Positions 2,896 through 26,528 of a DNA stretch of 64,000 bases are shown here, one piece after another (positions within the stretch are counted from its first letter, which is position 1; each line of letters starts with the position of its first letter). The notes beneath the pieces are model-generated. The model did not search any database, was not told the DNA's origin, and was given only the letters and a program-made list of their open reading frames with translations. Location: positions 620,001 through 684,000 of the forward strand of contig NZ_JAGGJF010000001.1 in NCBI RefSeq assembly GCF_030466405.1. Direction: 5' to 3'. Position numbers and translations under genes: made by a program. This DNA comes from Pseudidiomarina terrestris. GTDB taxonomy: Bacteria; Pseudomonadota; Gammaproteobacteria; Enterobacterales; Alteromonadaceae.

Positions 2896-5355
2896 TTATT
2901 TCGCTTCGAGAATAGCTTCGTAAACGGCAGTCATCAGGCTGCCATAATTTCCGGTTTCAAAGCTTTTGCCGAGAAATTCAACGGCGCCGTCGACTTCCGT
3001 GGTCGGGCTGTGCCGCGCATTGGTCAACAAGATAATGCCGAGGTCGAGGGCCGGATCCACCACGGTCGCAGTGCCCGTCCAACCGGTATGGCCAAAGGCC
3101 TGATGACTGGCATAAGGACCAAAATGCCAGCGCAACTGGCCATCGGCCGCGCGTCGCCAGCCCAAGCCAAAGGTGCGCTGTTGCTGATGCGGCTTGGTAA
3201 AGGCATCCAGTACCGAAGCTTCAAACAGATGCACATCGCCGTAGCCGCCGCCATTTAGCAAGGTTTGTACCAGTACCGCTAAATCCGGCGCGGTGGCAAA
3301 CAAGCCGGCATGACCCGCCACTTCGTCCATAGCATAAAAGGCTTTCTCATCATGGACCTCGCCCTGCAGCGTATAGGTCCGCACCCCAGGGAAATCGACC
3401 ACGCCACCACGGGTATTGCCTTGCAGCTCGGTAGCAGCAATCTCACCCGGACGACGACCTTTGCGCAGCGGCGCGAAAAGTGTGTCATGCAGACCTAAGG
3501 GGACATAAATGTTCTGCTCAACGTACTGATCCAGCGGCATTCCGGTAATCCGCTCGATGATGGTACCCAGCAACATGAAATTGGTGTCACTGTAGGTCGC
3601 GCGGACACCATTGCCGACATCAAAGGGCACCTTGGTGGCCATCAGCCGCTGCGTTTTTTCTTTTTGCAGCGAATAGAAGCCTTTACCAAGCTTGTTCTCC
3701 GGATCAAAGAAATGCACCTGCGGGGCATAGCCAGAGTGATGGTTGAGTAAATCTTTTACGGTTCGTGCTTCACGTCCATCGCCGCGGTATTCAGGCAAGT
3801 AAAAGTAAATCGGCTTATTAACATCCAACTGCCCACGCTCGACCAGTTGCATCATTGCCATCGAAGTTGCAAAAGCCTTGGTATTTGACGCCACATCAAA
3901 CAAGGTACCCGGCTGCATTGGCGTCGGCGCAGCCAGTAACTGACCCTGCTCATCGTAACGGCGGGCATAGCCATAGGCGCTTTGTTTAATGATTTTTCCG
4001 TCTTTCACTACGACCAGTACCGCACCCGGAAAACCTTTGGCGATGTCGGCTTCAATCAGCTCATCCACCTCATCAAACCTGCCCTGATAGTCTGCTGTAG
4101 CATCAATCAGGCGCGGATAAGGAATTCGCACCTCCAGCGTCGCATCCGCCGGTTCAACAGCTTTGACATGGAAGGTGTTGATACCGTCCTGCGTTCGCCG
4201 ATGCAGCGAATAATCGTAAGTTTTTCCGGCCCGCAAAGGTGTGGCGATATTCAATGTTTCACCGTTGACCTCGAGTACTGCGGTCAGATCCTGCTCCGCG
4301 GACAACAGCAGCTCACCACGCCCGCGGTAGCTCTTGAAGCCGGCCTTGTCATTCACCAGTTCACGACTCGAACGCTGCGCCTCTGGCTCTGGAAAACTGG
4401 CATCAATCTGGCCATGCTTAGGCTGCCAGCGTGGAGCGGGCTGCGCGGTAAGCTCCGCCTGATAACGCGTCCACAGCTGCTCCAGTTTTTCCGGGAAATA
4501 CTTCTCCAGTAATGCGAACAAAGCCGCACTGGTCTGGCTATCAGCTTTACCGTTCACCAGCCAGGGTAAGAAGTGCATTTGAAACGCCGCTACCGTGCTT
4601 GCGGTGGTCTCATCGTAAACACCCGTCTCGGTCAGTCCGTAACCGTAGGCATGCAACGCGGCCTGTAACAAACCGGTGTTCAACGGCTGCTGATTAAAAA
4701 TCTTCCAGTATTTGCTTAAGGTATCCTGCTCGTACCAAGCGCCGACGCCATGTTGGTAGAGCTGATACCAGGGGAAGCGTGGACCTGGATCGTTTTTACG
4801 GGTGGGGGTGATATCCGAATGCCCCACTACAGCAGTTGGGTGAATGTCCGGATGGCGCTCAAGAATATCCTGCGCTAGCTCAATCACCTTTTCGATTTGC
4901 GCAGGATCGTAGTCCGGGAACACACACAGGCGGTTTTCGCCGTGCTCCGCGCGGGACGGTTGTGTGCTGGTATCCCATTCGCACTGCGGTACGTTGACGA
5001 TTTCAATGCCAATGGACTGATCATTGAGGTCACTGCGGCCCTGCCAATAGCTTGCGCCGGCGTGCCAGGCCCGCTCTGACTCGTCCACCAATTGGAAGAC
5101 CTTAAGCTCATCATGCGGATAGCTTGGATCACCAGACTCCGGCACCAGATAATGCGAACTTAGCCCTTTTGGCTCTACCAATACCTGCACGCTTTTCTGA
5201 TAGTCGATGGCCGTGTAGTGCATCACCAGAACTTTAATCCGGTGATCGTAATTCGCCGACGGCATCTGTTCATAGTCTGCGAAGCTGCTGCAGCTATTGA
5301 CGGTAAACAATGCCACTAAGGCAACGCTAAAGGGTTTGATAAAAGTTCGGATCAT
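2896..5355 (-). CDS. N-acetylmuramoyl-L-alanine amidase (AmiD-type) fused to AmiE/YfeW-like serine hydrolase
   Basis: This 819-residue lipoprotein (signal with VNSC, Cys at about 22) joins two enzymes. Residues about 40-200 are an Amidase_2/AmpD-AmiD domain: His46 in VMHYTA, Glu118 in IGIEIVN, His179 in GHSD and Asp189 in KNDPG fit zinc ligands and catalytic residues. Residues about 222-290 look like a peptidoglycan-binding helical domain. A linker with beta-rich sequence follows. Residues about 425-810 are a class C beta-lactamase-family domain with Ser490-Asn-Thr-Lys493 and a YSDTN motif near 588. E. coli YfeW (beside murQP) and B. subtilis AmiE, an N-acetylmuramoyl-L-alanine amidase, belong to that family. 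The product should remove stem peptides from MurNAc in the periplasm or at the outer membrane. Its ATG overlaps the halogenase-like gene stop. The role of the second domain is inferred. Confidence 0.88.
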   Translation of the reverse strand: MIRTFIKPFSVALVALFTVNSCSSFADYEQMPSANYDHRIKVLVMHYTAIDYQKSVQVLVEPKGLSSHYLVPESGDPSYPHDELKVFQLVDESERAWHAGASYWQGRSDLNDQSIGIEIVNVPQCEWDTSTQPSRAEHGENRLCVFPDYDPAQIEKVIELAQDILERHPDIHPTAVVGHSDITPTRKNDPGPRFPWYQLYQHGVGAWYEQDTLSKYWKIFNQQPLNTGLLQAALHAYGYGLTETGVYDETTASTVAAFQMHFLPWLVNGKADSQTSAALFALLEKYFPEKLEQLWTRYQAELTAQPAPRWQPKHGQIDASFPEPEAQRSSRELVNDKAGFKSYRGRGELLLSAEQDLTAVLEVNGETLNIATPLRAGKTYDYSLHRRTQDGINTFHVKAVEPADATLEVRIPYPRLIDATADYQGRFDEVDELIEADIAKGFPGAVLVVVKDGKIIKQSAYGYARRYDEQGQLLAAPTPMQPGTLFDVASNTKAFATSMAMMQLVERGQLDVNKPIYFYLPEYRGDGREARTVKDLLNHHSGYAPQVHFFDPENKLGKGFYSLQKEKTQRLMATKVPFDVGNGVRATYSDTNFMLLGTIIERITGMPLDQYVEQNIYVPLGLHDTLFAPLRKGRRPGEIAATELQGNTRGGVVDFPGVRTYTLQGEVHDEKAFYAMDEVAGHAGLFATAPDLAVLVQTLLNGGGYGDVHLFEASVLDAFTKPHQQQRTFGLGWRRAADGQLRWHFGPYASHQAFGHTGWTGTATVVDPALDLGIILLTNARHSPTTEVDGAVEFLGKSFETGNYGSLMTAVYEAILEAK

Positions 5356-6917
5356 GGTGCCTTACAATGCTTCTGAATAAATTGTTCATGAGTCGGAAGT
5401 TGCGCGACAGATTGCGCAAAGATCCGCTGGACCGTTTGCAGGTGCTGCTGCATTTCCGCTGCTGGCATCTGCTCTGCTAAAGGATGCACCTGGGCGGGCC
5501 GGAGCCCCTGGCCCTGGAACATGGAAAACCAGCTGATTTCGTTAAATAGCTCGTTATTACTGTTTTTAAATACGCTGGCGTTCTCGCGGTACAGGTCAAG
5601 CCGCTCCTGCAGGGAGTCCGGCACTTCCATGTCACGGCAATAGCGCCAGAACTCCGAGTCATCCCGCTCAGTCAGCTTATAGTGACACATGACAAAATCA
5701 CGAATGTTGGTGATTTCCTCCGCGGTGTACTTATTAAACGCTGCCGCCCGTTCGCTGAGTTCACCTGGCCCCGGTAACAAGCTGATTAAGCGCATAATGC
5801 CTGACTGAGTCAGTTGTAACCCGGTCGACTCCAGCGGCTCAATAAATCCGGCGGACAAGCCGATGGCAACACAGTTATGACGCCAGGCCTGGTCGCGACG
5901 GCCATTTATCCAGCGCAAATGATTAGCTTTACTGTCGTGATTGCCGATGGTCTGGCGAAAATCACGCTCGGCTTGCTCCGTATCCGTGAAGCGACTCGAA
6001 TACACCCAGCCCTCGCCAGTGCGGTGCTGCAAAGGGATCCGCCAGCGCCAGCCCTCATGATGGGCGATCGAGCGTGTATACGGCAGAATAGCATCGTTAT
6101 GGTGCTGACCGGGTAAGGCGACAGCGCTGTCACACGGCATCCATTTACGCCAGTCGTGATAGCTGACGCCCAGAGCTTCACCAATCAGCAGCGCTTTAAA
6201 ACCACTGCAGTCAATGAAAAAGTCGCCGTTAAGTTCGCCGTGCTGCTCGAGCATTAAGGCATCGATTGGGCCTTGCTCGACGCGTTGCTTGGCACTGACC
6301 ATGCGGTCTTCCAGGGCGACAACACCCCGCTGCGTGGCATAGCGCTTAAGATAGTGAGCGTATTTCAGCGCATCAAAATGATACGCATATTTGATGTGCC
6401 CCAACGGACTGCGTTTATCTGCAATGGGCCGGCTAAACTTGTGTTCGATGGCGGCACGCCATTCTAAATTGAGATCGCTAAGCGGGATGGCATTGGCCTC
6501 GCCCTGCTCGCGAAGGTGGCGTAAGTAATAATGATGAAAAGGCACGCCGTTTAAGGTAACGCCATAAGGACCAAACGGATGCATATAGAAATCACCGATG
6601 TTCTGCCAGTTTTCAAACGCAATGCCCAGCTTGAAGGAGCCATTGGTTTCCCGCAGAAAGTCATCTTCATTGATTTCAAGAAGTTGATTGAATTCCCGAA
6701 TGCCCGGGATGGTGGCTTCGCCGACGGACACGGTGCCGATAGCTGCCGATTCCACTAAGGTGATTCGGTACTTTTGCCGGTCAAGGACTTTGCTTAACGC
6801 TGCAGCAGTCATCCAGCCTGCCGAGCCCCCACCTAAGATAACGATTTGATACGGATGCGTCATCGAATTGTTCATCAGAGGACCAAAATAGATGCGGCCA
6901 GCCGAAGCTGACCGCAT
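5352..6917 (-). CDS. Flavin-dependent tryptophan-halogenase-like protein
   Basis: The frame codes for 521 residues with the FADH2-dependent halogenase fold: nucleotide-binding GGGSAGW at about 29-35, SVGEATIPGI, the SFKLGI lysine (about 96) matching the catalytic Lys of PrnA, the halogenase signature WRWRIP, and GFIEPLESTG with the Glu that pairs with that lysine. All key residues of a true halogenase are therefore present. Genes of this family often stand next to TonB-dependent receptors in sugar-utilisation loci of Xanthomonas, Caulobacter and Alteromonadales, where their role is not established. Here it lies between the TonB receptor and the amidase fusion in one leftward operon. The start is uncertain: ATG at 6917 has GGTGA ten bases upstream, but homologues usually begin near MTHPYQIVILGGG, for which ATGs at 6875 or 6863 would serve. 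Confidence 0.88.
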   Translation of the reverse strand: MRSASAGRIYFGPLMNNSMTHPYQIVILGGGSAGWMTAAALSKVLDRQKYRITLVESAAIGTVSVGEATIPGIREFNQLLEINEDDFLRETNGSFKLGIAFENWQNIGDFYMHPFGPYGVTLNGVPFHHYYLRHLREQGEANAIPLSDLNLEWRAAIEHKFSRPIADKRSPLGHIKYAYHFDALKYAHYLKRYATQRGVVALEDRMVSAKQRVEQGPIDALMLEQHGELNGDFFIDCSGFKALLIGEALGVSYHDWRKWMPCDSAVALPGQHHNDAILPYTRSIAHHEGWRWRIPLQHRTGEGWVYSSRFTDTEQAERDFRQTIGNHDSKANHLRWINGRRDQAWRHNCVAIGLSAGFIEPLESTGLQLTQSGIMRLISLLPGPGELSERAAAFNKYTAEEITNIRDFVMCHYKLTERDDSEFWRYCRDMEVPDSLQERLDLYRENASVFKNSNNELFNEISWFSMFQGQGLRPAQVHPLAEQMPAAEMQQHLQTVQRIFAQSVAQLPTHEQFIQKHCKAP

Positions 6918-6939
6918 TGTTTCATTTTCACCGTGCGAC

Positions 6940-9819
6940 TTAGAAGTTGTAAGTCAACTGCAGGGTGTATGAACGCCCGCGTGGATCTGCTACGCGAGGG
7001 TCAAACGCTGCACCAGGTGAATAATCGTTCTGGTGTGCAGTGAACGGTGGATCGCGGTCAAACAGGTTCTTGATGCCGAAGGTCACATCAAGGTCTTCCC
7101 ACGCCAGGTAGCGAACACTGTAGTTGTAGATTGTATAGCTACCAACTTCACCATCGTAGTACGCAGGGTTTGCGATACCTGAACGAACACCTGGTGGTGT
7201 TTCATCATCGTAGCTATGACGATAAATCTGCGTCAGGTTATGTGCAAAGTCGCCTTTAGCGTAGTTGAACATAATGGTGTGCTTCCAGCGCAGAGGAATG
7301 TTACCGCGTGAGTGGGTACCCACCAGGTTGTCACCCCATGCTGCGTTGTCGAGCAGTTTCTTCTTATCTTCAATCAGATAGCTACCATTGAAGTTCACGT
7401 TCCAGAGACCACCGGCAAGTTCACCGTTGCTCTGAATACCCACTTCAATACCGCTGGTTTCACGTTCACCGGCGTTGATGTAACGGGTATCGATGGTTAC
7501 CAGTTCGCCAGCTTCATTACGGATGAAGTTCTCTTCGAACAGCTCGTAGTTTTCCAGCAAGTCGCGGAAACCTGGGATCTGAATGGTGCCGTCGATGACG
7601 ATACGCCACCAGTCGACATTCATTGAGAAGCTATCGGTCGGTGCATAAACGACACCAAAGCTTTGTTGCTTCGATTCCTCAGGACCTAAATCTTCTTTAC
7701 CACCGAATAAACGGGTTGGCGTGATAGGTGTATCACAGTTCGGGTCGCTGGCGTCGACTTCACCACCAGGGCAGTCACGCGGATCAGCAAGATCCTGACC
7801 TGTGTAAGGTTGCTCAGAAACGCCGTTAAACAGTTGGTTAAATGACGGTGTACGGAAGCCAGTACTGTAGGCACCACGTACTAAGACTTCCTCCACTGGG
7901 GTCCACACTAAGCCTACTTTCGGGTTAGTGGTGCCACCAAAACCATCGTAATGGTCATAGCGAACCGCTAGGTTCATTTCAAACGTCTCAACTACCGGCA
8001 CCAGTGCTTCGGTAAATACCGCTTTTACAGTGCGGTCAACATCGTCAAGCTCGTTGGCGTTGTCAAATGGCGCACCATAAATTTCCGGACGATCTGCAGC
8101 TGCACGACGGTCACCGTTGAATTCATAACCTTCGTTACGAATATCAACACCACCGGCTACATAAACGTTATCGCCACCCCAACCAAGGCTCCAACCTGTA
8201 TCACCCGTGATCGACGCATCGAACTGGGTCATCGTGGTTTTACCACCGTACAGGATAACGCCTTCAGCAGAAGCTGCGGCTAAAGCATCCATACCGGCTT
8301 GAGTTTGTGACTGGTCCGGCAATAAGAATGGGTTAATCGCGCCACTACCAATGCCTTGTGCAAGCATTGAGGTGTAGTGATAACCACCGCCAAGCTGCGA
8401 CTCGGATTCGTTGGTAGCATGGCCTAAGCCAACACGGTAATCCCAAAAACCGATAGTGCCTTCAACACCGAACTGAATCTTCATTGCTTCAGTTGTGGTT
8501 TCGATTTCACGAGGTCCACAATCCATACAACGCCAGCGATACGCAATCGGGGCGCCGATGTTTAACTGATCGGCGCCGTAAAACGCTGATAACGCATCAA
8601 CAATATAGTCATAAGACGCACCAGTACTTGGGTAATACCCCTCAGAACCGATTGACCATGGTGTGATCTGGTTTGGCTCAAAGACTTTTTGTGAAGTCAC
8701 TTCTGAACCCAGAACTTCGACAAAACCTTCAGCATTATCGCCCAGAACCATAGTTCCGCGTGCAACGAAATCAAAACTGTCGACCGGCTGCTGCAATGCT
8801 GCGGCACGCGGATAATCCCATGCACAGCTCACACCTGAGTTACGTTCACGGTTCCACAGTTCCGCTGCATCAGGGCCCATGTTCGGATAGACATCACAAC
8901 CGGGCATACCAGGGAGAGCAAGCACGTTGAGTACGTCATTAATCCGATCAGGGTCGCCCGGGTATTGTAAACCGGTACCGATCAAGTTGTAGTTTGGTGA
9001 GTTAGGATCATCACCGCCTGGACGGTTGTTCAGTGATGCGAATGGCGTACCACGCGTATCTGGTGACAAACCACTTTCTGGCTGGAAGGTGTTGGTGAAA
9101 TCACGATCGACACCGCGCAGGATTTCTGCTTTACGATACGAGAGTGAAGCCATCACATTGTAGCCATCAGAATATAAATCGCCTTTACCTGCTAAGACGT
9201 TGAAACGGTAAATGTTACCGCCGCCGTTCTCAGTATGATCTGCGAAGGCGCCAACTTGCGCGCCCTGAAAATCTTTTTTCAGGATAAAGTTGATAACACC
9301 ACCGATTGCATCAGTACCGTATACGGCAGAAGCGCCGTCACGTAATACTTCAACTCGCTCGATGGCAGAGAAAGGAATTGAGTTCAGGTCAACTGAACGC
9401 CCCTGGAGGCCGTGAGTTGCAGTACGACGACCGTTCAAAAGAACCAGTGTCGACCCTGAACCTTGTTGTCGCAAGTTAGCTGTTGAAGCACCGTTGTTAC
9501 CGCGCTCTTCACCACTTACGATACCTGTGTTACTGGCCAGGTTGTCATTTGAGTTTGAAGCAACGTTAAGTTGTAACAATAACTGTTCTGCAGTGGTAAT
9601 ACCCTGTGCATCAATCTCGTCACGCGAAATAACGGTCAGCGGTAAATCGCTTTCCATCGCTGTACGTTTGATACTTGAACCTGTTACCTGAATTCGTTCA
9701 ACTTTCTCTGCTTCTTCGTTTTGCTGTGTGTTCTCTTCTTGATCGACATCCTGAGCATAAGCGAGGCCGCTCATACTTGTAGTCAATCCCAGCACGAGTG
9801 CTATTTTATTGAGTTTCAC
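6940..9819 (-). CDS. TonB-dependent outer-membrane receptor
   Basis: I place the start at a GTG at 9819, which has GGAG eight bases upstream and is directly followed by a signal peptide ending LAYAQ; a longer frame to 9909 would put 30 charged residues before the signal. The mature protein, about 940 residues, has a plug domain (TVISRDEIDAQG, LVLLNGRR, VEVLRDGASAVYGTDAIGG) and a 22-strand-type barrel ending YTLQLTYNF with the usual terminal Phe. Such receptors take up large ligands across the outer membrane using TonB energy. Being first in an operon with wall amidase and halogenase-like genes, its ligand is probably a muropeptide or glycan fragment; this is inference. There is no N-terminal anti-sigma signalling extension. 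A predicted MurR-type operator lies about 150 bases upstream. Confidence 0.93.
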   Translation of the reverse strand: MKLNKIALVLGLTTSMSGLAYAQDVDQEENTQQNEEAEKVERIQVTGSSIKRTAMESDLPLTVISRDEIDAQGITTAEQLLLQLNVASNSNDNLASNTGIVSGEERGNNGASTANLRQQGSGSTLVLLNGRRTATHGLQGRSVDLNSIPFSAIERVEVLRDGASAVYGTDAIGGVINFILKKDFQGAQVGAFADHTENGGGNIYRFNVLAGKGDLYSDGYNVMASLSYRKAEILRGVDRDFTNTFQPESGLSPDTRGTPFASLNNRPGGDDPNSPNYNLIGTGLQYPGDPDRINDVLNVLALPGMPGCDVYPNMGPDAAELWNRERNSGVSCAWDYPRAAALQQPVDSFDFVARGTMVLGDNAEGFVEVLGSEVTSQKVFEPNQITPWSIGSEGYYPSTGASYDYIVDALSAFYGADQLNIGAPIAYRWRCMDCGPREIETTTEAMKIQFGVEGTIGFWDYRVGLGHATNESESQLGGGYHYTSMLAQGIGSGAINPFLLPDQSQTQAGMDALAAASAEGVILYGGKTTMTQFDASITGDTGWSLGWGGDNVYVAGGVDIRNEGYEFNGDRRAAADRPEIYGAPFDNANELDDVDRTVKAVFTEALVPVVETFEMNLAVRYDHYDGFGGTTNPKVGLVWTPVEEVLVRGAYSTGFRTPSFNQLFNGVSEQPYTGQDLADPRDCPGGEVDASDPNCDTPITPTRLFGGKEDLGPEESKQQSFGVVYAPTDSFSMNVDWWRIVIDGTIQIPGFRDLLENYELFEENFIRNEAGELVTIDTRYINAGERETSGIEVGIQSNGELAGGLWNVNFNGSYLIEDKKKLLDNAAWGDNLVGTHSRGNIPLRWKHTIMFNYAKGDFAHNLTQIYRHSYDDETPPGVRSGIANPAYYDGEVGSYTIYNYSVRYLAWEDLDVTFGIKNLFDRDPPFTAHQNDYSPGAAFDPRVADPRGRSYTLQLTYNF

Positions 9820-9963
9820 TTTGCAATCTCCGCTCGTTGTAAGAATCTGATGCGTATCGTGACTACGCTTTCTTTTTATAATCTCTGCCGCTAATCGACG
9901 AGTTACCACAACCGATGAAAAAATCCATCATGAGTTGAAAGTACCACATATTCTTATAATGTA

Positions 9964-9981
9964 AATAATAAATTATTCCAA
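9964..9981 (-). promoter_or_regulatory. Predicted MurR-type operator, site A (TonB receptor operon)
   Basis: Read on the minus strand this is TTGGAATAATTTATTATT. The 13-base core GGAATAATTTATT is identical to site B on the other strand. It lies upstream of the leftward TonB receptor operon. Assignment to the MurR-like regulator is inferred from recurrence within the locus only. Confidence 0.55.
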
Positions 9982-10194
9982 GTTGTTTAGTGAGTAATTT
10001 TTATGCGTCAGGTCAAGAGTGCTGTTTTTACACTCAATTTTTATGATTAATTACCGCCGCTTATGGGTGTCAGCCAATTTTGTTGCGGAATGTTTCTTGC
10101 GCCAGAAGCGTCAACTCCCACGCCTGTTATGTCAATTTATTCTAACAAATGGTGCTTTTATTCAACTCCTGAGATGAGATAAATCCCTTTACTA

Positions 10195-10210
10195 AGGAAT
10201 AATTTATTTT
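10195..10210 (+). promoter_or_regulatory. Predicted MurR-type operator, site B (nagZ promoter)
   Basis: The sequence AGGAATAATTTATTTT carries the shared core. A possible -10 element, TAGGAT, lies at 10226-10231, which would put the operator over the -35 region, so binding would be expected to repress nagZ. The core is seen directly; the promoter assignment is inference. Confidence 0.5.
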
Positions 10211-10278
10211 TCGGGGCAGCTGAAGTAGGATAGCTGACCAGAAATCTATCACCCGAACTTAATTTAAAGAGTGTAACC

Positions 10279-12144
10279 ATGTTTCGTACCTTTGCTTTTC
10301 TTGCTGCGACCGCGTTTGTGATTGCCAGTATTGCCGCCTGTTCGCCGCAAAGCGAGCCGCCAACGCCAACCTCGGAGGTACGACAGCTGCTGGGTCAGAA
10401 GCTGATGCTGGACTTCCGCTACTTTTGTGACGATGGCACCGCCGCGGAAAAGTGCCAGCAAGCAGTGACGGAACTTCCTGAAGAGCTGGCCGAAGTGCTT
10501 CGCGAGGGTGTGATCGGCGGCGTGATCGTGTTTTCTGAAAACCTGCAAAGCGTACCGCAGATCATGACTCTGATTGATGAAATGCAGGACGTCATGCGCG
10601 CAAGCGGTCACCCGCCACTCTTTATTGCCTTGGATCAGGAAGGTGGCCGCGTGGCCCGCTTACCTGATGACATCGCCACGCGTTTTGCCGGCAATATGGC
10701 CATTGGCGCAACTTACCCACAGCGCCAGACCGAATTTGCTGAGCAAGTAGGCGCTGGCATTGGCAAAGCTGTTAAATCACTAGGCTTTAACGTGAACTTT
10801 GCCCCCACCGTCGACGTTAACGTGAATCCGGAGAACCCGGTCATCAATGTCCGCAGTTACGGTGAGGACGCTGAGCTGGTGGCCACCCTTGGCATGGCCA
10901 CTGTCAAAGCCATGCAGGCACAGGGCGTGATGAGTGCGCTTAAACACTTCCCGGGGCACGGCGACACCCATGTGGATAGTCACACCGGCTTGCCCCGCGT
11001 AGATCATGACCGCGCCACTATTGACGCAGTTGACTTGCTGCCATTTCAGCGCAGTATTGCCAGCAGCACGCCACCGGCGATGATTATGACCGCGCATATT
11101 CAATACCCGCAATTAGATGACACCACCTTTGTCGCGAAAGATGGTCAGGCCACGGTCGTGCCGGCCACCATGTCGCAGAAAATTTTAACCGGCGTATTGC
11201 GTGATGAACTTGGCTATCGCGGTGTCATCATCACCGACGCGCTCGACATGGCAGGAATTGCTCATTACTTTGAACCACTGGCGGCGACCATTCAAACCTT
11301 CAACGCCGGTTCCGATATAGCATTAATGCCGTTCACTATCCGTAACAATGCGGATATTGATGCCTTTTGGCAGTATTTCGAAGGGTTGGAGAGGGCTGTT
11401 CAAGCTGGGCAACTTGATTTGGAACAGTTGCGCGTGTCCGGCGCCCGCATCGCCGACCTGAAACAGCGCTATGGACTTCTGTCATCAGCATCTCTGCCGC
11501 TGGCTGAACGAATTCAGTATGTCCAGAATAAGCTGCCCCTGGCGGCTAACAAAGAGCTTGAACGCAAGCTGGCAGCGGCTTCTGTTACTAAGGTCTGGGA
11601 CAACGCCCTATTGCCGATAACGACGAAAGCCTGGCAGCTGGTCATGCCCGATACACTGCGTTGTGTTGCTTTTGAACAAGCGATCCTTGCACAACAGCCT
11701 GGTGCTGAAGTGAACTGTGTCAGCTTGAGCAAATTACCTGAGGGCCAGCCATGGCAGGACTGGAATCCGGACGCGACACTGGTCATCGGCGATATAACCC
11801 CGCACCACAGTCTGGCAGAGATGGGTGGGATGGACGATTTGGCGAACTGGCGCGAACGGCCCAGTAAAGCAGACCAGTACCTGTGGCTGGAACAGGTACT
11901 CGCTGTGGCTAAGCAGCGTCAGCAACCTACTGTGCTGGTCGCCCTGCGCGCTCCTTATGTGCTGTCACGTTACCGGGACGTCGCTGATGCCGCGCTTGCC
12001 AGTTACGACTACAGTGCGCATGGTTCTGAAGACAGCAGCGCACGGATTCATAGCCCCAGTATCGATGCCATCGTCGCCGTTTTATTAGGCGAGCAGGCAC
12101 CGGGTGTGCTGCCGGTGACAGTATTCCCGTCTGCGCCTAACTAA
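10279..12144 (+). CDS. nagZ: Beta-N-acetylglucosaminidase, GH3 NagZ-type lipoprotein
   Basis: The 621-residue protein starts with a lipoprotein signal (SIAAC, Cys21). The GH3 barrel covers about 33-370: ALDQEGGRVARL, NFAPTVDVN, the loop KHFPGHGDTHVDSH with the Asp233-His235 dyad that serves as acid/base in NagZ enzymes, and Asp320 in VIITDALDM as the likely nucleophile. These positions nearly equal those of B. subtilis NagZ (His234, Asp318). A C-terminal domain of about 230 residues makes it two-domain like B. subtilis NagZ, unlike the 341-residue cytoplasmic E. coli enzyme. It should release GlcNAc from the non-reducing end of muropeptides in the periplasm. It has its own promoter region with operator site B, and its stop overlaps the convergent M14 peptidase gene by four bases. 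Confidence 0.92.
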   Translation: MFRTFAFLAATAFVIASIAACSPQSEPPTPTSEVRQLLGQKLMLDFRYFCDDGTAAEKCQQAVTELPEELAEVLREGVIGGVIVFSENLQSVPQIMTLIDEMQDVMRASGHPPLFIALDQEGGRVARLPDDIATRFAGNMAIGATYPQRQTEFAEQVGAGIGKAVKSLGFNVNFAPTVDVNVNPENPVINVRSYGEDAELVATLGMATVKAMQAQGVMSALKHFPGHGDTHVDSHTGLPRVDHDRATIDAVDLLPFQRSIASSTPPAMIMTAHIQYPQLDDTTFVAKDGQATVVPATMSQKILTGVLRDELGYRGVIITDALDMAGIAHYFEPLAATIQTFNAGSDIALMPFTIRNNADIDAFWQYFEGLERAVQAGQLDLEQLRVSGARIADLKQRYGLLSSASLPLAERIQYVQNKLPLAANKELERKLAAASVTKVWDNALLPITTKAWQLVMPDTLRCVAFEQAILAQQPGAEVNCVSLSKLPEGQPWQDWNPDATLVIGDITPHHSLAEMGGMDDLANWRERPSKADQYLWLEQVLAVAKQRQQPTVLVALRAPYVLSRYRDVADAALASYDYSAHGSEDSSARIHSPSIDAIVAVLLGEQAPGVLPVTVFPSAPN

Positions 12145-16135: not shown

Positions 16136-16148
16136 AGGGTAGGGCATC

Positions 16149-18173: not shown

Positions 18174-19102
18174 AATTTTTGCTCCACCGCACGGCGCAGG
18201 AAACCATCTTGCTGGTCAAGCAGCGCTTCAGCTTCCGCCAGCTCGGCACCGGTTAAAATCATTAAAATGGCGAGCTTGGCACGGTTCTTAGCCGCTTTTA
18301 AGGCCGCTTCTGCCGTTTCACGGGAACAGTCTGTGGCCTGCATGACAATTCGAATCGCCCGCGCGCGCAGCTTTTCGTTACTGGCGTTGACATCGACCAT
18401 CAGGTTTTCATAGGTTTTGCCAAGGCGAATCATGCTGGCGGTGCTAAGCATGTTGAGCACTAGCTTTTGCGCCGTGCCCGATTTCATGCGGGTCGAACCG
18501 GTCAGAGCCTCAGGCCCCACCACCGGACAAATGCCAATCTGCGCAGTGGTCATCAGTGGTGAGTCAGGATTACAGGTCACCGATACCGACACACAACCGA
18601 TGGCATTCGCATACTCAAGGGCTGCGACCACATAAGGCGTGCGGCCACTGGCGGAGAGTCCTACCAATACATCCTTGCTGGATAAATGAACGGCTTTGAC
18701 ATCGGCAATCCCCGCTTCGCGGTCATCTTCGGCGCCTTCAACGGCGAACTGGATGGCGTGCTCGCCCCCGGCAATGATGCCCTGTACCAGATCATCGGGT
18801 ACGCTGAACGTAGGCCGGCACTCTACTGCGTCGAGAATGCCGAGTCGGCCACTGGTGCCGGCACCAATATAAAATAGCCGGCCTCCGGCTTGCAGACGTT
18901 CGACAATGGCGTCGACGGCCTCAGCAATGCTGGGGATTTGGGAAGCCACCGCGGGTGCGACGTGCGCGTCTTCATGATTGAGCTTACGCAAAATCCCCTC
19001 ACTGGAGAGGATATCGATTTCCATCGTCTCTGGGTTACGTCCCTCTGAAACGATTTTATTCAGTTGCGCCAGCAGTTCGGCAGTGCGTTTTGAATCTTCC
19101 AT
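18170..19102 (-). CDS. murQ: N-acetylmuramic acid 6-phosphate etherase
   Basis: The 310-residue cytoplasmic SIS-domain enzyme cleaves the lactyl ether of MurNAc-6-phosphate, giving GlcNAc-6-phosphate and D-lactate. Signatures are the start [11 protein letters not shown], the SIS core [23 protein letters not shown] (key part GAGTSGRLG and the catalytic Glu in DAVEC), AVEGAEDD with the second glutamate, [24 protein letters not shown] and the C-terminal UBA-like helices. Length equals E. coli MurQ (298) within a few residues. It sits between the symporter (eight bases) and namZ (overlap). This is the defining gene for MurNAc use and anchors the reading of the whole locus. Confidence 0.96.
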
Positions 19103-19110: not shown

Positions 19111-20691
19111 TTATACGTTGCGCTCGTTGCCGTTAGCTTCCTTAGCTGACGAGCCGGTCAAACAAATCAGGGTTGAGATGGCAGTGCCAATCATCAATTG
19201 CCAGGTAAAGCCGATATCGGTCACCCACGCCGTGGGCCAGATGGCGTCCATGACATAGGGTTGCATCAGCAGTGGCACAATAAAGCCAATCACCAGCGCT
19301 GCGGCGACAGATGCCGGGCTACCGCGCTTACTAAACAAAGTCACAAAGTAGACGCCCAACAGACCACTGTAGGAGAACACCATGACACTTAAGGCAAACT
19401 GCAGCAATGGCGTATCCGTGTACTGTTGCCAGTAATAGCACAGGCAGGCCATCAGTGCTAAAGCGGCCGCGACCAGGGTCATACCTAACTGACCGGCACG
19501 CACGAAGTGCTTTTCGCTGGCATCGGCGCGCCGACGCAGCTTCCAGGGCCGGTAAATATCCTGGATCAGGACGCTGGACATGGAGTTCAGGCCCGAGTTC
19601 AGGGTCGACAATGCGGCGGCAATAATACCTATGGTGACCAAACCACGGACGCCCGCAGGGATTTCCGTGAGCACGTAATACATGAAAATGGTGACCGCTT
19701 CGCCGGCAAACGTTGGCACCGGTCCATCGCCCTGGCCACTGGCCATGATATCCGGACGCTGATAGTAAATGTAAAGCAGCAGGCCGATGACAATAAAGAG
19801 CAGCATGACAGGAATAACCATGACCACCGACATCAGCATGGCTTTACTGCCTTCTTTGGCATTTTTACAGGTCAATACCCGTTGGGTCATGTCCTGATCC
19901 AGACCAAAGGCGGCAATATTCAGTAGCACGAAGCCCGTTAATACTGACCAGATGTTGAAGACGCCCGCGCTGCTGAAATCCATTTCCGTATCAATCAGCT
20001 GCAGCTTCGAGGGAGCCCCCGGTGCGGGATTTTGCAGGGCACTGACCAGCTCGCTAAAACCAATCGGAATCGCATTATAAAGTACGATGATGACCGCGAT
20101 GGCGGCACTGACATAAATAACAGCCTGCAGGACATCCGAGTAAATAACCGTACGGATCCCACCATAAACTGTATACAACAGGCCAGCTAAGGTGATGATG
20201 AGCGTCGCCGCGATAACGCTACTAGCAGCAAAATCGCCAAACAGAATCATCGCCACGGCAATCGCCGCCATATACAGCCGCGCCCCGCTGGCAAAGATAC
20301 GTCCAAACAGGTACATGACCCCCGCCTGACGCTTCGCCGCCGCGCCAAAACGCTGTTCCAGTAACTCATAGACGGTGTAGACGCGGAACTGGTAAAACTT
20401 GGGGATCAGGAAGATGGCAACAAAGCCGACCGCGATAAACGCACCAATGTTGGTCGCCAGATAGGTTAAATCACCGCGATAGCCCTGATCCGGGCCACCC
20501 AGGAAGGTTGCCGCGGACTGTGACGTCGCCAGTACCGAAATCGCCACCACCCACATCGGCATTTTGTTGCCGCCAAGGAAGTAATCCTGCGTTGACGCAT
20601 TACGACGATTAAACAGCCAGCCGCTGCCCAGCAGCACCAGCCCATAAGCAATAAACACCAACACGTCTGCAAACGAATAATAGCCGAGCAT
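19111..20691 (-). CDS. Sodium:solute symporter (SSS family), candidate MurNAc importer
   Basis: The 526-residue protein has about 13-14 hydrophobic segments and SSS-family landmarks: [18 protein letters not shown] in the first helices, a [16 protein letters not shown] stretch, [35 protein letters not shown] and [24 protein letters not shown]. The family takes up sugars, sialic acid and amino acids with sodium. It is first in the operon with murQ and namZ, behind operator site D; no PTS transporter (MurP) is present, so it is the best candidate for MurNAc or anhydro-MurNAc import across the inner membrane. Substrate is inferred from context alone. Confidence 0.85.
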
Positions 20692-20723
20692 AAAGTCTTT
20701 TCGGGTTAAATGATTTACCAGTT

Positions 20724-20741
20724 AGAATAGATTATTCCAAC
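20724..20741 (-). promoter_or_regulatory. Predicted MurR-type operator, site D (symporter-murQ-namZ)
   Basis: On the minus strand the site reads TTGGAATAATCTATTCTAA, a good inverted repeat (TTGGAATA facing TATTCTAA). It lies about 33 bases upstream of the symporter ATG. Confidence 0.55.
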
Positions 20742-20795: not shown

Positions 20796-20804
20796 GCCAG
20801 GCCG

Positions 20805-22115: not shown

Positions 22116-22143
22116 CGATCGATTCCTTGTTATTCCTGAAACA

Positions 22144-22161
22144 AGAATAAAGTATTACAAC
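22144..22161 (-). promoter_or_regulatory. Predicted MurR-type operator, site E (serine hydrolase / nag operon)
   Basis: Minus strand TTGTAATACTTTATTCTT, the weakest match to the shared motif, with two differences in the core. It lies 29 bases before the serine-hydrolase start and about 80 bases before the divergent kinase gene, so it could serve both. Confidence 0.45.
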
Positions 22162-22239: not shown

Positions 22240-23136
22240 ATGAAGCAAGCAACCTCTTCTCTTTATTATGTGGGCGTAGATGGCGGCGGCACCAAATGCC
22301 GCGCCGAGCTCTACAACGTTCAGGGCGAACGGCTTGGCGCTGGTATAGCCGGCTCGGCCAACATTGCCCGGCAGGGCAATACCGCTCAACAGTCCATTCT
22401 TACCGCGGTAAGCAATGCGTTTGCCGACGCCTGTCTGAGTCAGGAACATTTTGCCGAGACCACGGTCTGCGCCGGTCTGGCCGGGGCTAACTTGCCCTCT
22501 GCTGCCGCGCAGTTACGTGCCTGGCCGCACCCTTTTAAAGCTTTTCACTTCACCTCAGACCTGCACACTGCTTTATACGGTGCCCATGCCGGCGCGAATG
22601 GGTCGGTGCTGGTCATGGGCACGGGTTCCTGCGCTGCTGCTTTGGTTGACGGCAAACTGGTGCAGTTCGGCGGGCATGGTTTCTTACTTGGCGATAAAGG
22701 CAGCGGTGCCTGGCTGGGCAAACAAGCGGTGATGCATACTCTTGAAGCCCTCGACGGCATTGTTCCCCGTGGCGAGCTGGCAGAGGCAGTGTGCCGTCAC
22801 TACCAGTGCAGCACCGCGACGGACATTGTTGATCGACTGATTCAGGCCGCTCCCGGTGAGTTTGGTCAAATCTGTCCGAAAATTTTAGAGCTTGCCAGTC
22901 AGCACGAAAGCACCGCTCTGGCCCTGGTTGAACGCGGCAGCAGTTATCTCAGCGCCATTGCCCGCCAAGCCCTGCAACTTAGCGGTGGCAAGCTGGTGAT
23001 CGCCGGCGGTGTCGCCGCCGCAATGACCCCCTGGCTTGATGACGACATTCGTGCTGCGCTCCAGGACACCCAATTTGGTCCTGAATGGGGCGCAGTGCTA
23101 CTCCACCAAAACGGCGGCCTGGGAGACGTATCATGA
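22240..23136 (+). CDS. nagK: Amino-sugar kinase, BadF/BadG family (NagK/MurK-type)
   Basis: The 298-residue protein is an ASKHA-fold kinase: GVDGGGTKCRAELYN is the phosphate-1 loop, VCAGLAGANLPS follows, GTGSCAAALVDG and GGHGFLLGDKGSGAWLG are the usual BadF/BadG segments, and VIAGGVAAAM is the adenosine loop. It should phosphorylate GlcNAc at C6, and related MurK enzymes also take MurNAc. Since this is the only sugar kinase in the locus and both MurNAc and GlcNAc are expected to enter unphosphorylated, a double role is attractive but inferred. It starts the rightward nagK-nagB-nagA-nagP operon; its stop overlaps nagB (ATGA). Confidence 0.88.
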   Translation: MKQATSSLYYVGVDGGGTKCRAELYNVQGERLGAGIAGSANIARQGNTAQQSILTAVSNAFADACLSQEHFAETTVCAGLAGANLPSAAAQLRAWPHPFKAFHFTSDLHTALYGAHAGANGSVLVMGTGSCAAALVDGKLVQFGGHGFLLGDKGSGAWLGKQAVMHTLEALDGIVPRGELAEAVCRHYQCSTATDIVDRLIQAAPGEFGQICPKILELASQHESTALALVERGSSYLSAIARQALQLSGGKLVIAGGVAAAMTPWLDDDIRAALQDTQFGPEWGAVLLHQNGGLGDVS

Positions 23137-24125
23137 GCCAGCAAATGTTTGACGAAGCCACCTCAGCCCCTGACATTATCGCCCAGCAGCTGCACAATAA
23201 CGCTGCCCGCTGCGAGGACATTGCCAGTCAGCTCAGATCGCAGCCGCCGCGCACCATCATGATGATCGGCCGCGGCACTTCAGATCATGCCGGCGTGTTC
23301 GCCAAATACCTGTTCGAAGTGAGCTGTGGTATTCCAGTAGTTGCCGCCGCGCCCTCCGTTGCCGGGGTGTATAAACGCACCCTGAACCTCGAGGGTTGTC
23401 TGGCGATTTGTATTTCGCAGTCCGGGCAAAGCCCTGACATCGTGCAGCAGGCGCAACTGGCGAAAGCTGGCGGTGCGCGTCTGCTGGCGCTGGTCAATGT
23501 AGTGGACTCCCCACTAGGTCGACTGGCCGACGAAGTCCTGCCGCTGCATGCTGGCCCCGAACTTGCTGTGGCAGCGACCAAAAGTTACCTGGCCAGCCTC
23601 AGCGCACTGTGCCAGCTATGTGCGTACTGGCAACAGGATCGCGACTTACTGCAAGCGCTGGAGCAATTGCCGGAGGCCCTGCGCGAGGGCCAGCAACTGC
23701 CCGCCCAACTCGAAGCCACGCAACTCGATGGCTTAAAGCATTGCGTGGTGTTGGGCCGCGGCTTTGGTTATGCCATCGCCCGCGAGGTCGCGCTGAAGCT
23801 GAAAGAAGTGCTGAGTATTCACGCCGAAGCCTTTAGCAGCGCAGAATTTCTGCATGGCCCGGTAACACTGGCAGAAAAACAGCTATGCATTATCGACCTG
23901 CAGATTGATGATGAAGGCGGCCCTACTCATCAGGAACAAATGCAGGGTATTGCCGCACGCGGCGCCCAACTCATTCGTATGCACGTTCCGGTTGCCCCCC
24001 ATCCGCGGCTGCAACCTCTGGTACTGATGCAGCGTTTTTATTTAGACATCGAACGGGCTGCGAGGCAGCTGGGCCTCGACCCAGACTCTCCTCCGGGCCT
24101 GAAAAAAGTAACGGAAACCCGCTAA
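23133..24125 (+). CDS. nagB-II: Glucosamine-6-phosphate deaminase, NagB-II (SIS) type
   Basis: The start is the ATG at 23133 (MSQQMFDEATSAP), which overlaps the kinase stop and follows GGGAGA; a longer frame upstream is a by-product. The 330-residue protein consists of two SIS domains as in the isomerase half of GlmS: MMIGRGTSDHAG, CISQSGQSPDIV, AVAATKSYLASL, then VLGRGFGYAIAREVALKLKEV (core ALKLKEV) and EAFSSAEFLHGP. It lacks the GlmS glutaminase domain. NagB-II converts glucosamine-6-phosphate to fructose-6-phosphate and ammonia, replacing the classical NagB in Shewanella and other marine gammaproteobacteria. The next gene begins at TAATG. Confidence 0.92.
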   Translation: MSQQMFDEATSAPDIIAQQLHNNAARCEDIASQLRSQPPRTIMMIGRGTSDHAGVFAKYLFEVSCGIPVVAAAPSVAGVYKRTLNLEGCLAICISQSGQSPDIVQQAQLAKAGGARLLALVNVVDSPLGRLADEVLPLHAGPELAVAATKSYLASLSALCQLCAYWQQDRDLLQALEQLPEALREGQQLPAQLEATQLDGLKHCVVLGRGFGYAIAREVALKLKEVLSIHAEAFSSAEFLHGPVTLAEKQLCIIDLQIDDEGGPTHQEQMQGIAARGAQLIRMHVPVAPHPRLQPLVLMQRFYLDIERAARQLGLDPDSPPGLKKVTETR

Positions 24126-25249
24126 TGTTTGTATGCGACCAGGTACTTACGCCACAAGGTTGGCGCCAGAACCAACTCATTGAAGTTGCAGCCGGGGTGA
24201 TTACCGCGATCAGCGACGCCCCCGCCCAGCATAATTATCCCAGTTACCAGGGCCAGTTAGTGCCGGGCTTTATCGACGTGCAGGTGAATGGCGGCGGCGG
24301 CGTGTTGTTTAATCAGCACCGCAGCGCCAGTGCCTTAGAGCGCATTATGGCCGCCCATCGCGAGCACGGCACCACCGCGCTGCTACCCACCTTGATCACC
24401 GATAGCTACAGTGCAATGCATGATGCTGCAGCCGCCATGAAAGCGGCAAAAGCAGAAGGAATTCCAGGCATCATCGGCGTCCACTTCGAAGGCCCCTGGC
24501 TGAGCACCGCCCGCAAAGGCGTGCACAGCGAGCAGTTTATCCGGCCACCGAGTGCGGATGAGATCGCCCTGCTAAGCGACCCTGCGCTGGGCACTGTGAT
24601 GGTGACAGTGGCGCCCGAGAATGTATCTGTCGAGGTGATCAAAAAGCTGAGCGCGGCCGGCATTAAGGTCTTTTTAGGTCACTCGGATGCCAGCGCCGCG
24701 CAGGTTAATGCCGCACTGGACGCCGGCGCTATCGGCTTTACCCATCTATACAACGCCATGTCGCCGCTGCAGTCACGCGCGCCCGGCATGGTCGGCGTTT
24801 GCCTGGCGCGGGACTGTTATGCCGGCTTGATTGTTGATGGCTATCACGTGGATCCGCAAGCCTGTCAGGTGGCCTTCCGCGCCAAGGGTAAAACACAAAT
24901 GATGCTGGTGACTGATGCCATGGCGTTAGCGGCGACAGACGCCACCGAAGTACCTTTCTTCGATACCCGTATTGTTCGCGATGGTGACAAGCTGACCACG
25001 CCTGACGGCACCCTCGCAGGTTCCTGCCTGACCATGATCGATGCCGTTCGCAATACGGTTCAGCAGTGCGCTGTCAGTCTCGCGGATGCGGTTGAAATGG
25101 CCAGCCTTACCCCGGCCCGAATGCTGGGTCTGGACCACATGCTCGGGAGTATAGAGGTCGGTAAGCAGGCCGACTTTATGCTGCTCGACTCTGAACTCAA
25201 CATCGTGCAACTGTGGCAACAGGGCACCCCGATTCGAAAGGACGCCTGA
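24125..25249 (+). CDS. nagA: N-acetylglucosamine-6-phosphate deacetylase
   Basis: The 374-residue cytoplasmic amidohydrolase removes acetate from GlcNAc-6-phosphate, which arises both from GlcNAc and, via MurQ, from MurNAc. Visible signatures: VPGFIDVQVNGGGG, HFEGPWLS with the metal-binding Glu, GHSDAS and THLYNAMSP with two metal-binding histidines, DGYHVDP, and VTDAMALAA with the catalytic Asp. Length matches the family. The ATG overlaps the nagB-II stop by one base (TAATG) and nagP follows after one base, so the four genes are tightly coupled. Confidence 0.95.
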   Translation: MFVCDQVLTPQGWRQNQLIEVAAGVITAISDAPAQHNYPSYQGQLVPGFIDVQVNGGGGVLFNQHRSASALERIMAAHREHGTTALLPTLITDSYSAMHDAAAAMKAAKAEGIPGIIGVHFEGPWLSTARKGVHSEQFIRPPSADEIALLSDPALGTVMVTVAPENVSVEVIKKLSAAGIKVFLGHSDASAAQVNAALDAGAIGFTHLYNAMSPLQSRAPGMVGVCLARDCYAGLIVDGYHVDPQACQVAFRAKGKTQMMLVTDAMALAATDATEVPFFDTRIVRDGDKLTTPDGTLAGSCLTMIDAVRNTVQQCAVSLADAVEMASLTPARMLGLDHMLGSIEVGKQADFMLLDSELNIVQLWQQGTPIRKDA

Positions 25250-25250
25250 T

Positions 25251-26528
25251 ATGCGCACTTTGATCCCCATGACCACCATAGGTATCTTGTTTTTTATTTT
25301 CGGCTTTGTGACCTGGCTCAACGGCGCGTTGATCCCGTTTCTGCAGATCATTTCCGATCTGAGTGAGTTTCAGGCACTCCTGGTCGCCTTCTGTTTTTAT
25401 ATCGCTTACGTGGTCATGGCTTTGCCCATGTCGTGGATCCTCGACCATACCGGCTACAAAAACGGTATGGTGTTAGGCTTGGCGTTGGTAGGTCTCGGCT
25501 TGTTCCTGTTCGTACCGGCTGCGAAAACTCACTATTTTAGTATTTTCCTGTTTGCCCAATTTGTGGTGGGCTCAGGGCTCACACTTTTGCAGACCGCCTC
25601 CAACCCTTACATTGTGCGCATTGGTCCACATGAGTCAGCGGCCGCGCGTATCGCCATTATGGGCATCCTCAACAAACTGGCTGGCGTCTTTGCCCCGCTG
25701 TTTTTCACCTGGCTGGTACTCGCCGACTTTCCAAATGTGAGTGCGGCGAGCATTGCCGAGCTAAGCGCGAGTGAGCGCGCAGCACAGGTCAGCGCCATGG
25801 CAGCGAACATCATTCCGCCCTATGTGGGCATGGGGATCGCTATGTTTGTGCTGGCCCTGGGCTTATTCGGTATTAAGCTTCCTCATATCCGCGAAGAAGC
25901 GCCTTCCGGTGCTGATGTTCATACATCGGTGCTGCGCTACCCGCAACTGGTGCTGGGCGCCATGGCCTTATTTTTCTATGTCGGTGTGGAAGTTATCGCC
26001 GGCGATACCATTGGTATGTACGGCTCACGGCTGGGCCTGGCCAATTACTCCAGCCTGACCTCCTATGTCATGGCGGCCATGGTGATCGGTTATGTGTTGG
26101 GCCTGTTGCTCATCCCTCGTTTACTCAGCCAACAGCAGGCGCTGACAGCTTCAGCTGCGCTTGGTTTGCTGTTCAGTGGCGCTTTACTGATGAGCTCCGA
26201 CACCAGCACCGCCATTGCCAGCCTGTTGTGGGGCTGGAGCAGCGTTCCTGTGGTCCCCAACTCCGTTGCCCTACTGGCGCTGCTGGGCCTTGCCAACGCC
26301 ATGGTCTGGCCGGCCATCTGGCCGCTGGCACTTGCCGATTTGGGTAAGTTCACCGCCCGCGGTTCCGCCATACTGATTATGGGTATCGCTGGTGGCGCCG
26401 TCTTGCCACTGGTCTATGGCGGGCTTGCCGACGCGTTCAGTGCTAAACATGCCTACCTGTTACTGCCAGTAGGCTACGCCGTGATTGGCTGGTACGGACT
26501 GGTCGGACATAAGAAGCGGAGCTGGTGA
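25251..26528 (+). CDS. nagP: N-acetylglucosamine transporter NagP (MFS, FHS family)
   Basis: The 425-residue membrane protein has 12 hydrophobic segments and FHS/FucP-type landmarks: FFIFGFVTWLNGALIPFLQ (first helix, shortened to FGFVTWLNGALIP), PMSWILDHTGYKNGM, LLQTASNPYIVRIGP and EVIAGDTIG. It is the MFS importer that brings free GlcNAc into the cytoplasm in PTS-independent Nag pathways of Shewanella and Xanthomonas. It is the last gene of the nagK operon. A short GTGAAA/TTTCAC hairpin follows the stop but has no T run, so I do not call a terminator. Confidence 0.92.
   Translation: MRTLIPMTTIGILFFIFGFVTWLNGALIPFLQIISDLSEFQALLVAFCFYIAYVVMALPMSWILDHTGYKNGMVLGLALVGLGLFLFVPAAKTHYFSIFLFAQFVVGSGLTLLQTASNPYIVRIGPHESAAARIAIMGILNKLAGVFAPLFFTWLVLADFPNVSAASIAELSASERAAQVSAMAANIIPPYVGMGIAMFVLALGLFGIKLPHIREEAPSGADVHTSVLRYPQLVLGAMALFFYVGVEVIAGDTIGMYGSRLGLANYSSLTSYVMAAMVIGYVLGLLLIPRLLSQQQALTASAALGLLFSGALLMSSDTSTAIASLLWGWSSVPVVPNSVALLALLGLANAMVWPAIWPLALADLGKFTARGSAILIMGIAGGAVLPLVYGGLADAFSAKHAYLLLPVGYAVIGWYGLVGHKKRSW

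Follow-up and report, generated by a model that had tools for sequence, protein, structure and literature searches.

A 64,000-nucleotide stretch of the Pseudidiomarina terrestris genome (hereafter the window) contains, between positions 2896 and 26528, a gene cluster that we read as one regulon for feeding on cell-wall fragments, with a probability of about three in four. For each step from the outer membrane to fructose-6-phosphate and pyruvate there is a candidate gene, carried by operons with an operator-like motif in common. In addition, the genes for MurQ, the N-acetylmuramic acid (MurNAc) 6-phosphate etherase, and for NamZ, an exo-muramidase of family GH171, occur together across the family, and MurQ is largely mutually exclusive with MurU, an enzyme of the anabolic recycling route.

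The host genome comprises 2.63 Mb on 14 contigs. Every gene that an earlier note on this DNA had named in the locus is an intact open reading frame in its place, with domains confirmed by Pfam and NCBIfam, and two genes absent from that list, for a halogenase-like protein and for a protein named UnkS here, also belong to the locus (Table 1). Domains were called with Pfam and equivalogs with the curated NCBIfam cut-offs (in bits). MurQ (418 versus a cut-off of 302, TIGR00274), NagB-II (485 versus 430), NagA (303 versus 226) and the PBP4B part of the amidase fusion (462 versus 385) exceed these cut-offs, and the NamZ protein belongs to GH171 by both of its domains (NamZ_N, 267 versus 26.9 bits; NamZ_C, 103 versus 25 bits). 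The NagK (SO3507) and NagP (SO3503) equivalogs are not reached (296 versus 370 and 472 versus 625 bits), which leaves these assignments at family level, and for the dehydrogenase every NCBIfam model is below cut-off. NamZ carries an apparent Sec signal peptide, matches 4jja over residues 28-388 and has its closest named relatives in Pseudidiomarina (P. halophila, 81%). The close gene spacing suggests the operons TonB-halogenase-like-amidase/PBP4B, dld-like-M14, SSS-murQ-namZ and nagK-nagB-nagA-nagP; the SSS carrier gene adjoins murQ on the same strand with an 8-base gap, a pairing that recurs in relatives.

The description of the locus as independent of the phosphotransferase system (PTS) also held, in that the genome yielded a single enzyme I, PtsP, of the nitrogen-PTS type (757 amino acids; PRK11061, 893 versus 583 bits). 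No sugar-PTS enzyme I was detected among the genome's matches to TIGR01417, a search that did not cover MurP itself; the score with the PtsI model falls short of the cut-off (428 versus 824 bits), and the remaining matches are lower-scoring frames resembling phosphoenolpyruvate synthase.

Five sites of the operator-like motif, scoring 22-30 bits, are present in the 64-kb window, all of them inside the locus and together standing before every operon. The next-best score in the window is 14.5 bits, and 20 Markov-1 random sequences reach at most 18.0. The matrix was built from 38 sites in intergenic regions of other species, with no window sequence; four of the five window sites lie in regions whose orthologues trained it, and the region of the site at 20723 was not used. 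When one locus at a time was left out, five sites above 18 bits were recovered in six of the seven Pseudidiomarina loci and four in the seventh (L032). In other genera, 19 of the 31 scanned loci contain at least one site above 18 bits, usually in front of the SSS, amidase-fusion, UnkS or MurR gene; the other 12 have none, and L043, L046, L060 and L077 have none above 13. Judged from its position, the MurR-like protein would be the one that binds the five sites.

The conservation of the locus was followed in 110 loci around NamZ, of which 30 are short (approximately 3.6 kb, one being the window's own) and 80 are named; the latter are the best 80 matches and thus a biased set. Counts are tblastn matches at E ≤ 1e-5 with no coverage filter, and some contigs are short. 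Thirteen locus genes stand in the same order in all seven named Pseudidiomarina loci (NagB was not found in L036), which stop short of the halogenase and amidase-fusion genes, and the order is partly kept in Alteromonas, Pseudoalteromonas, Paraglaciecola and Rheinheimera. Among the best 80 named loci, matches were obtained for SSS in 42, MurQ in 37, the NagK-like kinase in 32, MurR in 27, GH3 and the amidase fusion in 25 each, M14 in 20 and UnkS in 16. In 147 genomes of the family, NamZ tracks MurQ (62 of 70 MurQ-positive versus 4 of 77 MurQ-negative genomes), and the E. coli control genome gave no NamZ match.

From the observed genes, their spacing and their shared motif, we infer the following pathway. 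Muropeptides or disaccharides would cross the outer membrane through the TonB receptor, their peptides would be stripped or trimmed by the amidase/PBP4B fusion and UnkS, and exported NagZ and NamZ would split the glycan into N-acetylglucosamine (GlcNAc) and MurNAc. Both sugars would enter the cell through the SSS carrier and NagP, and the BadF-type kinase would convert them to 6-phosphates, from which MurQ would form GlcNAc-6-phosphate and D-lactate; NagA and NagB-II would lead on to fructose-6-phosphate, and the FAD/Fe-S enzyme to pyruvate. The likely repressor of these operons is the MurR-like protein, which would act at sites of the type AATAAATTATTCC and be released by a ligand resembling MurNAc-6-phosphate. 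In locus-bearing members of the genus, MurQ would also take the MurNAc-6-phosphate that AnmK supplies from own-wall turnover, the anabolic AmgK-MurU branch having been given up.

Table 1. Genes and operator-like sites of the locus, with the orphan AmgK-like gene of the same genome
Feature	Position	Strand	Basis or remark
Amidase/PBP4B fusion, exported	2896..5355	-	Amidase_2 + PG_binding_1 + Beta-lactamase (Pfam)
Tryptophan-halogenase-family flavoprotein	5352..6917	-	PF04820, E 1e-170; between TonB receptor and fusion gene
TonB-dependent outer-membrane receptor, proposed muropeptide/disaccharide importer	6940..9909	-	Pfam
Operator-like motif	9964..9982	+	30.0 bits; upstream of TonB operon
Operator-like motif	10193..10211	-	26.7 bits; upstream of GH3
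Two-domain NagZ-type GH3	10279..12144	+	Pfam GH3; lipobox-like IAAC at residues 18-21
M14 zinc carboxypeptidase-like	12141..13298	-	Pfam M14
FAD + 4Fe-4S 2-hydroxyacid dehydrogenase, proposed D-lactate dehydrogenase	13295..16078	-	FAD_binding_4/FAD-oxidase_C/Fer4/CCG
Operator-like motif	16118..16136	+	23.6 bits; between dld-like and murR-like genes
RpiR/MurR-like regulator	16149..16997	+	HTH_6 + SIS
NamZ (GH171), exo-beta-N-acetylmuramidase family	17004..18173	-	NamZ_N + NamZ_C
MurQ, MurNAc-6-phosphate etherase	18170..19102	-	NCBIfam TIGR00274, basis of assignment
SSS-family sodium symporter, proposed MurNAc importer	19111..20691	-	SSF domain
Operator-like motif	20723..20741	+	22.1 bits; upstream of SSS-murQ-namZ
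UnkS (name coined here), exported protein outside Pfam, 436 residues	20805..22115	-	Predicted PBP/beta-lactamase fold
Operator-like motif	22143..22161	+	27.4 bits; between UnkS gene and nagK-BAP
BadF-type sugar kinase, NagK-like "type A", proposed GlcNAc + MurNAc 6-kinase	22240..23136	+	Pfam, NCBIfam
NagB-II, glucosamine-6-phosphate deaminase	23085..24125	+	SIS domain; NCBIfam
NagA, GlcNAc-6-phosphate deacetylase	24125..25249	+	Amidohydrolase domain; NCBIfam
NagP-like MFS GlcNAc permease	25251..26528	+	MFS domain; NCBIfam below cut-off
Orphan AmgK-like gene without MurU	L129:12304-13341 (C9), outside window		HRD->HRK, IDF->TGF

Free MurNAc requires a 6-kinase before MurQ can act, and it is plausible, from sequence comparison, that the window kinase phosphorylates MurNAc. 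Many relatives carry a BadF-type kinase ("type B") between SSS and MurQ, and all six sampled long MurQ frames (of eight among the family genomes) are kinase-MurQ fusions, which indicates that, in these proteins, MurQ receives the product of a kinase from this superfamily. These fusions (L168-L173, from six family genomes) measure 615-701 residues; in L171 the NagK model gives no match at 1e-15, and the kinase half was assigned by its DGGG motif and the tree. In the kinase tree (33 rows: 26 of the 32 named NagK-like matches, the window kinase and the six fusions), the window kinase belongs to a separate clade, type A, with support of 100/100. The specificity of the MurNAc kinase MurK depends on S133-P134-L135 and T94, and human NagK has been argued to be able to accept MurNAc (PMC10465942; this and the other papers cited by PMC number are drawn on in excerpt). 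An alignment by way of human NAGK places G144-G145-H146 and S106 of the window kinase at these positions, where the correspondence of T94 with S106 would follow from the neighbouring catalytic aspartate. Specificity could not be read from these residues, which are permissive and not decisive; human NAGK passes the same test.

A rather unlikely alternative is that free MurNAc is not a substrate, that only anhydro-MurNAc reaches MurQ by way of AnmK, and that the window kinase serves GlcNAc alone. AnmK is present in all 26 genomes of the genus, the nearest PDB relative of the kinase is a probable GlcNAc kinase and its nearest model is NagK, all of which fit this alternative, but enzymes of the NamZ family release MurNAc, not anhydro-MurNAc, from non-reducing ends. 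It is also opposed by the type A kinases that stand beside SSS-NamZ without nagB, nagA or nagP matches in L038, L041, L050 and L060 (MurQ was not found in L060).

Among the same 26 genomes (three of them less than 90% complete), NamZ is present in 12, MurQ exceeds its cut-off in the same 12, and MurU exceeds its cut-off in the other 14. Seven of the 12 appear to be the genomes of the seven named Pseudidiomarina loci, and therefore the two sets are not independent. Across the 147 family genomes, 76 have MurU only, 59 MurQ only, 11 both and one neither, so that exactly one is present in 135. This exclusion has already been reported for Beta- and Gammaproteobacteria, together with a tie between the anabolic recycling route and intrinsic fosfomycin resistance (PMC5371407); what is added here is the split inside one genus, plus the 11 exceptions. 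In the genus tree (seven proteins, 25 rows; G162, in which the region is absent, was left out, and G163 enters with 40% of the columns), the MurQ genomes form two sets of 3 and 9 rows, which need two changes, one of them forced by the starred branches. One or two switches between MurQ and MurU may thus have occurred in the genus, and the tree does not date gain against loss.

Because MurU is absent and AnmK is kept in the locus-bearing genomes, the same MurQ probably handles MurNAc-6-phosphate from the cell's own wall, and the role of the locus is probably twofold, feeding and recycling of the own wall. Scavenging as the sole function was rejected on the MurQ/MurU exclusion, and the contrast drawn earlier between living on wall debris and only recycling the own wall is accordingly softened. 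The exclusion patterns in genus and family, their agreement with the published report and the universal AnmK also suit the converse, namely that the locus mainly recycles the own wall, with catabolic MurQ having replaced anabolic AmgK-MurU and scavenging being minor. We consider this improbable, since the AnmK route needs, by general pathway knowledge, no NamZ, exported two-domain NagZ, TonB receptor, SSS or NagP, which here share the motif, and NamZ accompanies MurQ in 62 of 70 genomes.

The domain composition of the enzymes points to peptidoglycan. The fusion joins an Amidase_2 domain of the AmiD/AmpDh3-like type, in which we take H46, H179 and D189 to be the likely zinc ligands by motif, to a peptidoglycan-binding domain and a PBP4B/AmiE-like serine hydrolase with the motifs S490-N-T-K493 and H756-T-G758. 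The GH3 protein matches B. subtilis YbbD (3bmx) across residues 35-617 (E 1e-98) and is of the two-domain BsNagZ type. No signal peptide was seen in the M14 protein, which is distant from MpaA. The locus does not correspond to a Bacteroidetes-type polysaccharide utilization locus, as the receptor scores 23.6 versus 368 bits with the SusC model and no SusD domain occurs among the locus proteins. That it is a general GlcNAc-glycan or chitin-fragment locus with the MurNAc genes as passengers is very improbable: nagK-nagB-nagA-nagP do resemble the Shewanella GlcNAc set by their NCBIfam names and GH3 enzymes can act on chito-oligosaccharides, but no chitinase domain was found in the locus by Pfam, NamZ, MurQ, amidase and PBP4B point to peptidoglycan, and SSS-MurQ-NamZ is kept without nagB, nagA and nagP in the fetched stretches of some relatives (e.g. 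L039, L044 and L048).

Several observations weigh against the proposed wall-feeding regulon. The locus proteins contain no endolytic enzyme (lysozyme, lytic-transglycosylase or endopeptidase domains in Pfam), and therefore the locus would take fragments, not intact wall; with MurNAc phosphorylation no firmer than plausible, the word "complete" in the earlier note claims too much. The window kinase is the only NagK-like match in its own genome at E ≤ 0.01, so that MurNAc activity would depend on it alone, and it is below the NagK cut-off, outside the MurQ-linked kinase clade and only permissive at the MurK specificity positions. The regulator falls short of the E. coli MurR equivalog (172 versus a cut-off of 408 bits) and is therefore called MurR-like. 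Of the co-occurrence with GH171 that the note had pointed to, the SSS symporter is matched in 42 of the best 80 named loci, and the TonB receptor is confined to the seven Pseudidiomarina loci except for one weak match (26%, L045) in the other 73. SSS and NamZ occur without a MurQ match in the fetched stretches of L060, L074, L076, L077 and L078, and NamZ stands alone in many loci, mainly of Bacteroidota (most Bacteroidota loci). Eight of the 70 MurQ-positive family genomes lack NamZ, four NamZ-positive genomes lack MurQ, and the 11 genomes with both MurQ and MurU (e.g. G009, G021, G054 and G127) depart from exclusion. No M14 match was obtained in G026 and G165, two of the 11 MurQ-positive genus loci covered by longer stretches (G163 is a short contig).

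UnkS could not be identified by sequence (no Pfam, NCBIfam or PDB match), and the answer came from fold and motifs alone. In the alignment, the SxxK motif (S134xxK137) is present in 16 of 17 rows, K365xG367 in all 17, and the candidate second motif N183-S184-N185 reads N-S-N in all 17 and is not a canonical SxN/YxN. The exception to SxxK, a homologue at L052:1951-3249, has Gly in place of the serine and is possibly inactive. The predicted model has medium confidence (predicted local distance difference test, 67.5), with parts below 50 that include residues 129-136 and 170-187, and the active-site geometry is therefore not reliable. Foldseek returned no match to the model at E ≤ 0.001 (best 1.1e-3); 49 of its top 50 entries are titled beta-lactamases, penicillin-binding proteins (PBPs) or peptidoglycan synthases, the title of the other, 6gth, being uninformative. 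Alignment with OXA-10 (VIA-align) gives Z 14.0 over 214 residues at a root-mean-square deviation of 3.6. By its predicted fold, UnkS would belong to the PBP/serine beta-lactamase superfamily. Its profile finds 23 of the 147 genomes at E ≤ 1e-15, all 23 positive for both MurQ and NamZ (hypergeometric 4e-9, uncorrected for kinship); in 12 of the 23, the distance between UnkS and murQ exceeds 15 kb or the two lie on different contigs, and thus UnkS follows the pathway and not only the neighbourhood. We propose, from the modelled fold, that UnkS trims peptides on muropeptides.

A trace of the presumably abandoned anabolic route is seen in the lptD-amgK-murU-djlA region. Of the 12 MurQ-positive genus genomes, the 11 whose sequence extends to djlA have lost MurU (in G163 the contig ends), and AmgK is kept in nine of the 12 and lost in G026 and G165. 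In all nine orphan copies, the HRD of the putative catalytic loop is HRK and IDF is TGF, the second motif reading TGFHDA in eight and TGFHHA in G149. HRD and IDFQDA are kept in all 14 AmgK copies accompanied by MurU and in the solved homologue 3csv. The two replaced aspartates are presumably the catalytic and the metal-binding one, by comparison with kinases of the aminoglycoside-phosphotransferase type. Neither form reaches the NCBIfam cut-off for AmgK (196 and 272 versus 550 bits), and the name is therefore based on the closest match and on the adjacent MurU, whose score exceeds its own cut-off (308 versus 250 bits). The orphan frames are open, with a ratio of nonsynonymous to synonymous divergence (dN/dS) of 0.03-0.07 in four of ten pairs; the other six are saturated in dS, and among the four, dS is near 3 for two pairs and low (0.22) for G154/G102 only. 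The median dN is 0.130 for orphan pairs versus 0.124 for pairs with MurU. The orphan AmgK is seemingly catalytically dead and apparently under purifying selection.

A tentative joint reading, possible but doubtful, is that gain of the regulon rewired recycling within the genus. MurU would have been lost, AmgK without its two motif aspartates would have been retained to bind MurNAc or GlcNAc without catalysis (as a sensor or regulator), and UnkS, a new PBP-fold family, would have been recruited to trim foreign muropeptides.

Just 3' of nagP (26591-29362) lie genes for a GGDEF protein and for a beta-lactamase + DUF3471 protein, with no operator-like site before either among the window's 16 best motif matches. 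The segment 33593-45539, of lower G+C and near a tRNA-Arg at 31582, encodes a pyridine-nucleotide oxidoreductase, MerT, a dioxygenase, an SBF transporter and an RND efflux set (OEP, HlyD, AcrB) and may be a mercury/efflux island. At 56308-58543, after a peroxidase, an FGE-sulfatase/DinB_2 protein adjoins a histidine-specific methyltransferase, a pair that we take to resemble the ergothioneine genes egtB-egtD.

Growth of Pseudoalteromonas CF6-2 on peptidoglycan as sole carbon and nitrogen source may speak for the wall-feeding reading, although the excerpted paper credits it to amino acids (PMC6962226). From other genera, transcripts for degrading peptidoglycan and metabolizing MurNAc have been described in the deep sea (PMC11044484). 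Idiomarina has been described as having given up carbohydrate genes in favour of protein feeding (PMC6336423), and wall debris would be a sugar source in a relative of this carbohydrate-gene-poor genus. In the literature searched, which covered few subscription papers, no description of this locus was found, NamZ appeared with MurNAc and TonB for Anabaena only, the titles found for MurNAc or peptidoglycan as sole carbon source with TonB-dependent uptake were not on MurNAc scavenging, and no mention joined AmgK with a pseudokinase. New here are the shared motif before every operon, the MurQ/MurU split within a genus, the altered orphan AmgK and UnkS. The genus offers a natural contrast of two recycling routes, and the locus points to three candidates for testing, namely a kinase that may act on both sugars, an AmgK that seems to be inactive and a family of PBP fold not covered by Pfam.

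The locus combines features of several known systems. B. subtilis uses murQRP-amiE-nagZ-namZ, imports through the PTS by MurP and has no outer membrane; NamZ, a two-domain lipoprotein NagZ, an AmiE/PBP4B-like hydrolase, MurQ and an RpiR-type regulator are shared, whereas SSS, TonB and a separate kinase are found here. The murR-murQP-yfeW genes of E. coli likewise include MurQ, an RpiR regulator and a PBP4B (YfeW) homologue, but import is by PTS, no exported NagZ is known and PBP4B is not known to be fused to an amidase. The Shewanella nag genes (SO3503, SO3506 and SO3507) are of the same NagK, NagB-II and NagP types, with NagA, but here the nag genes are joined to mur genes and the shared motif, with NagK and NagP below the equivalog cut-offs. 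Regarding the proposal of a Gram-negative equivalent of these systems, the candidate gene for each step supports it, but T. forsythia murTKQ, with a sodium-symporter-family MurNAc importer, kinase and etherase, came first (PMC5790795), and therefore PTS-independent Gram-negative MurNAc uptake is, on the excerpted text, not new in kind. Both systems are Gram-negative and PTS-independent with MurQ and a sodium-symporter-family protein as MurNAc importer (a candidate one here), T. forsythia has a MurNAc kinase, and use of foreign wall, proposed here, is common to both (PMC5790795, PMC10465942, PMC7670621). Unlike the present organism, T. forsythia is a MurNAc auxotroph that builds its wall with murTKQ, with no AnmK predicted in the excerpted account (PMC7670621). 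Unlike in T. forsythia, NamZ, NagZ, the TonB receptor, the D-lactate-type enzyme, the nag genes and the regulator here share a motif, and the kinase is NagK-like.

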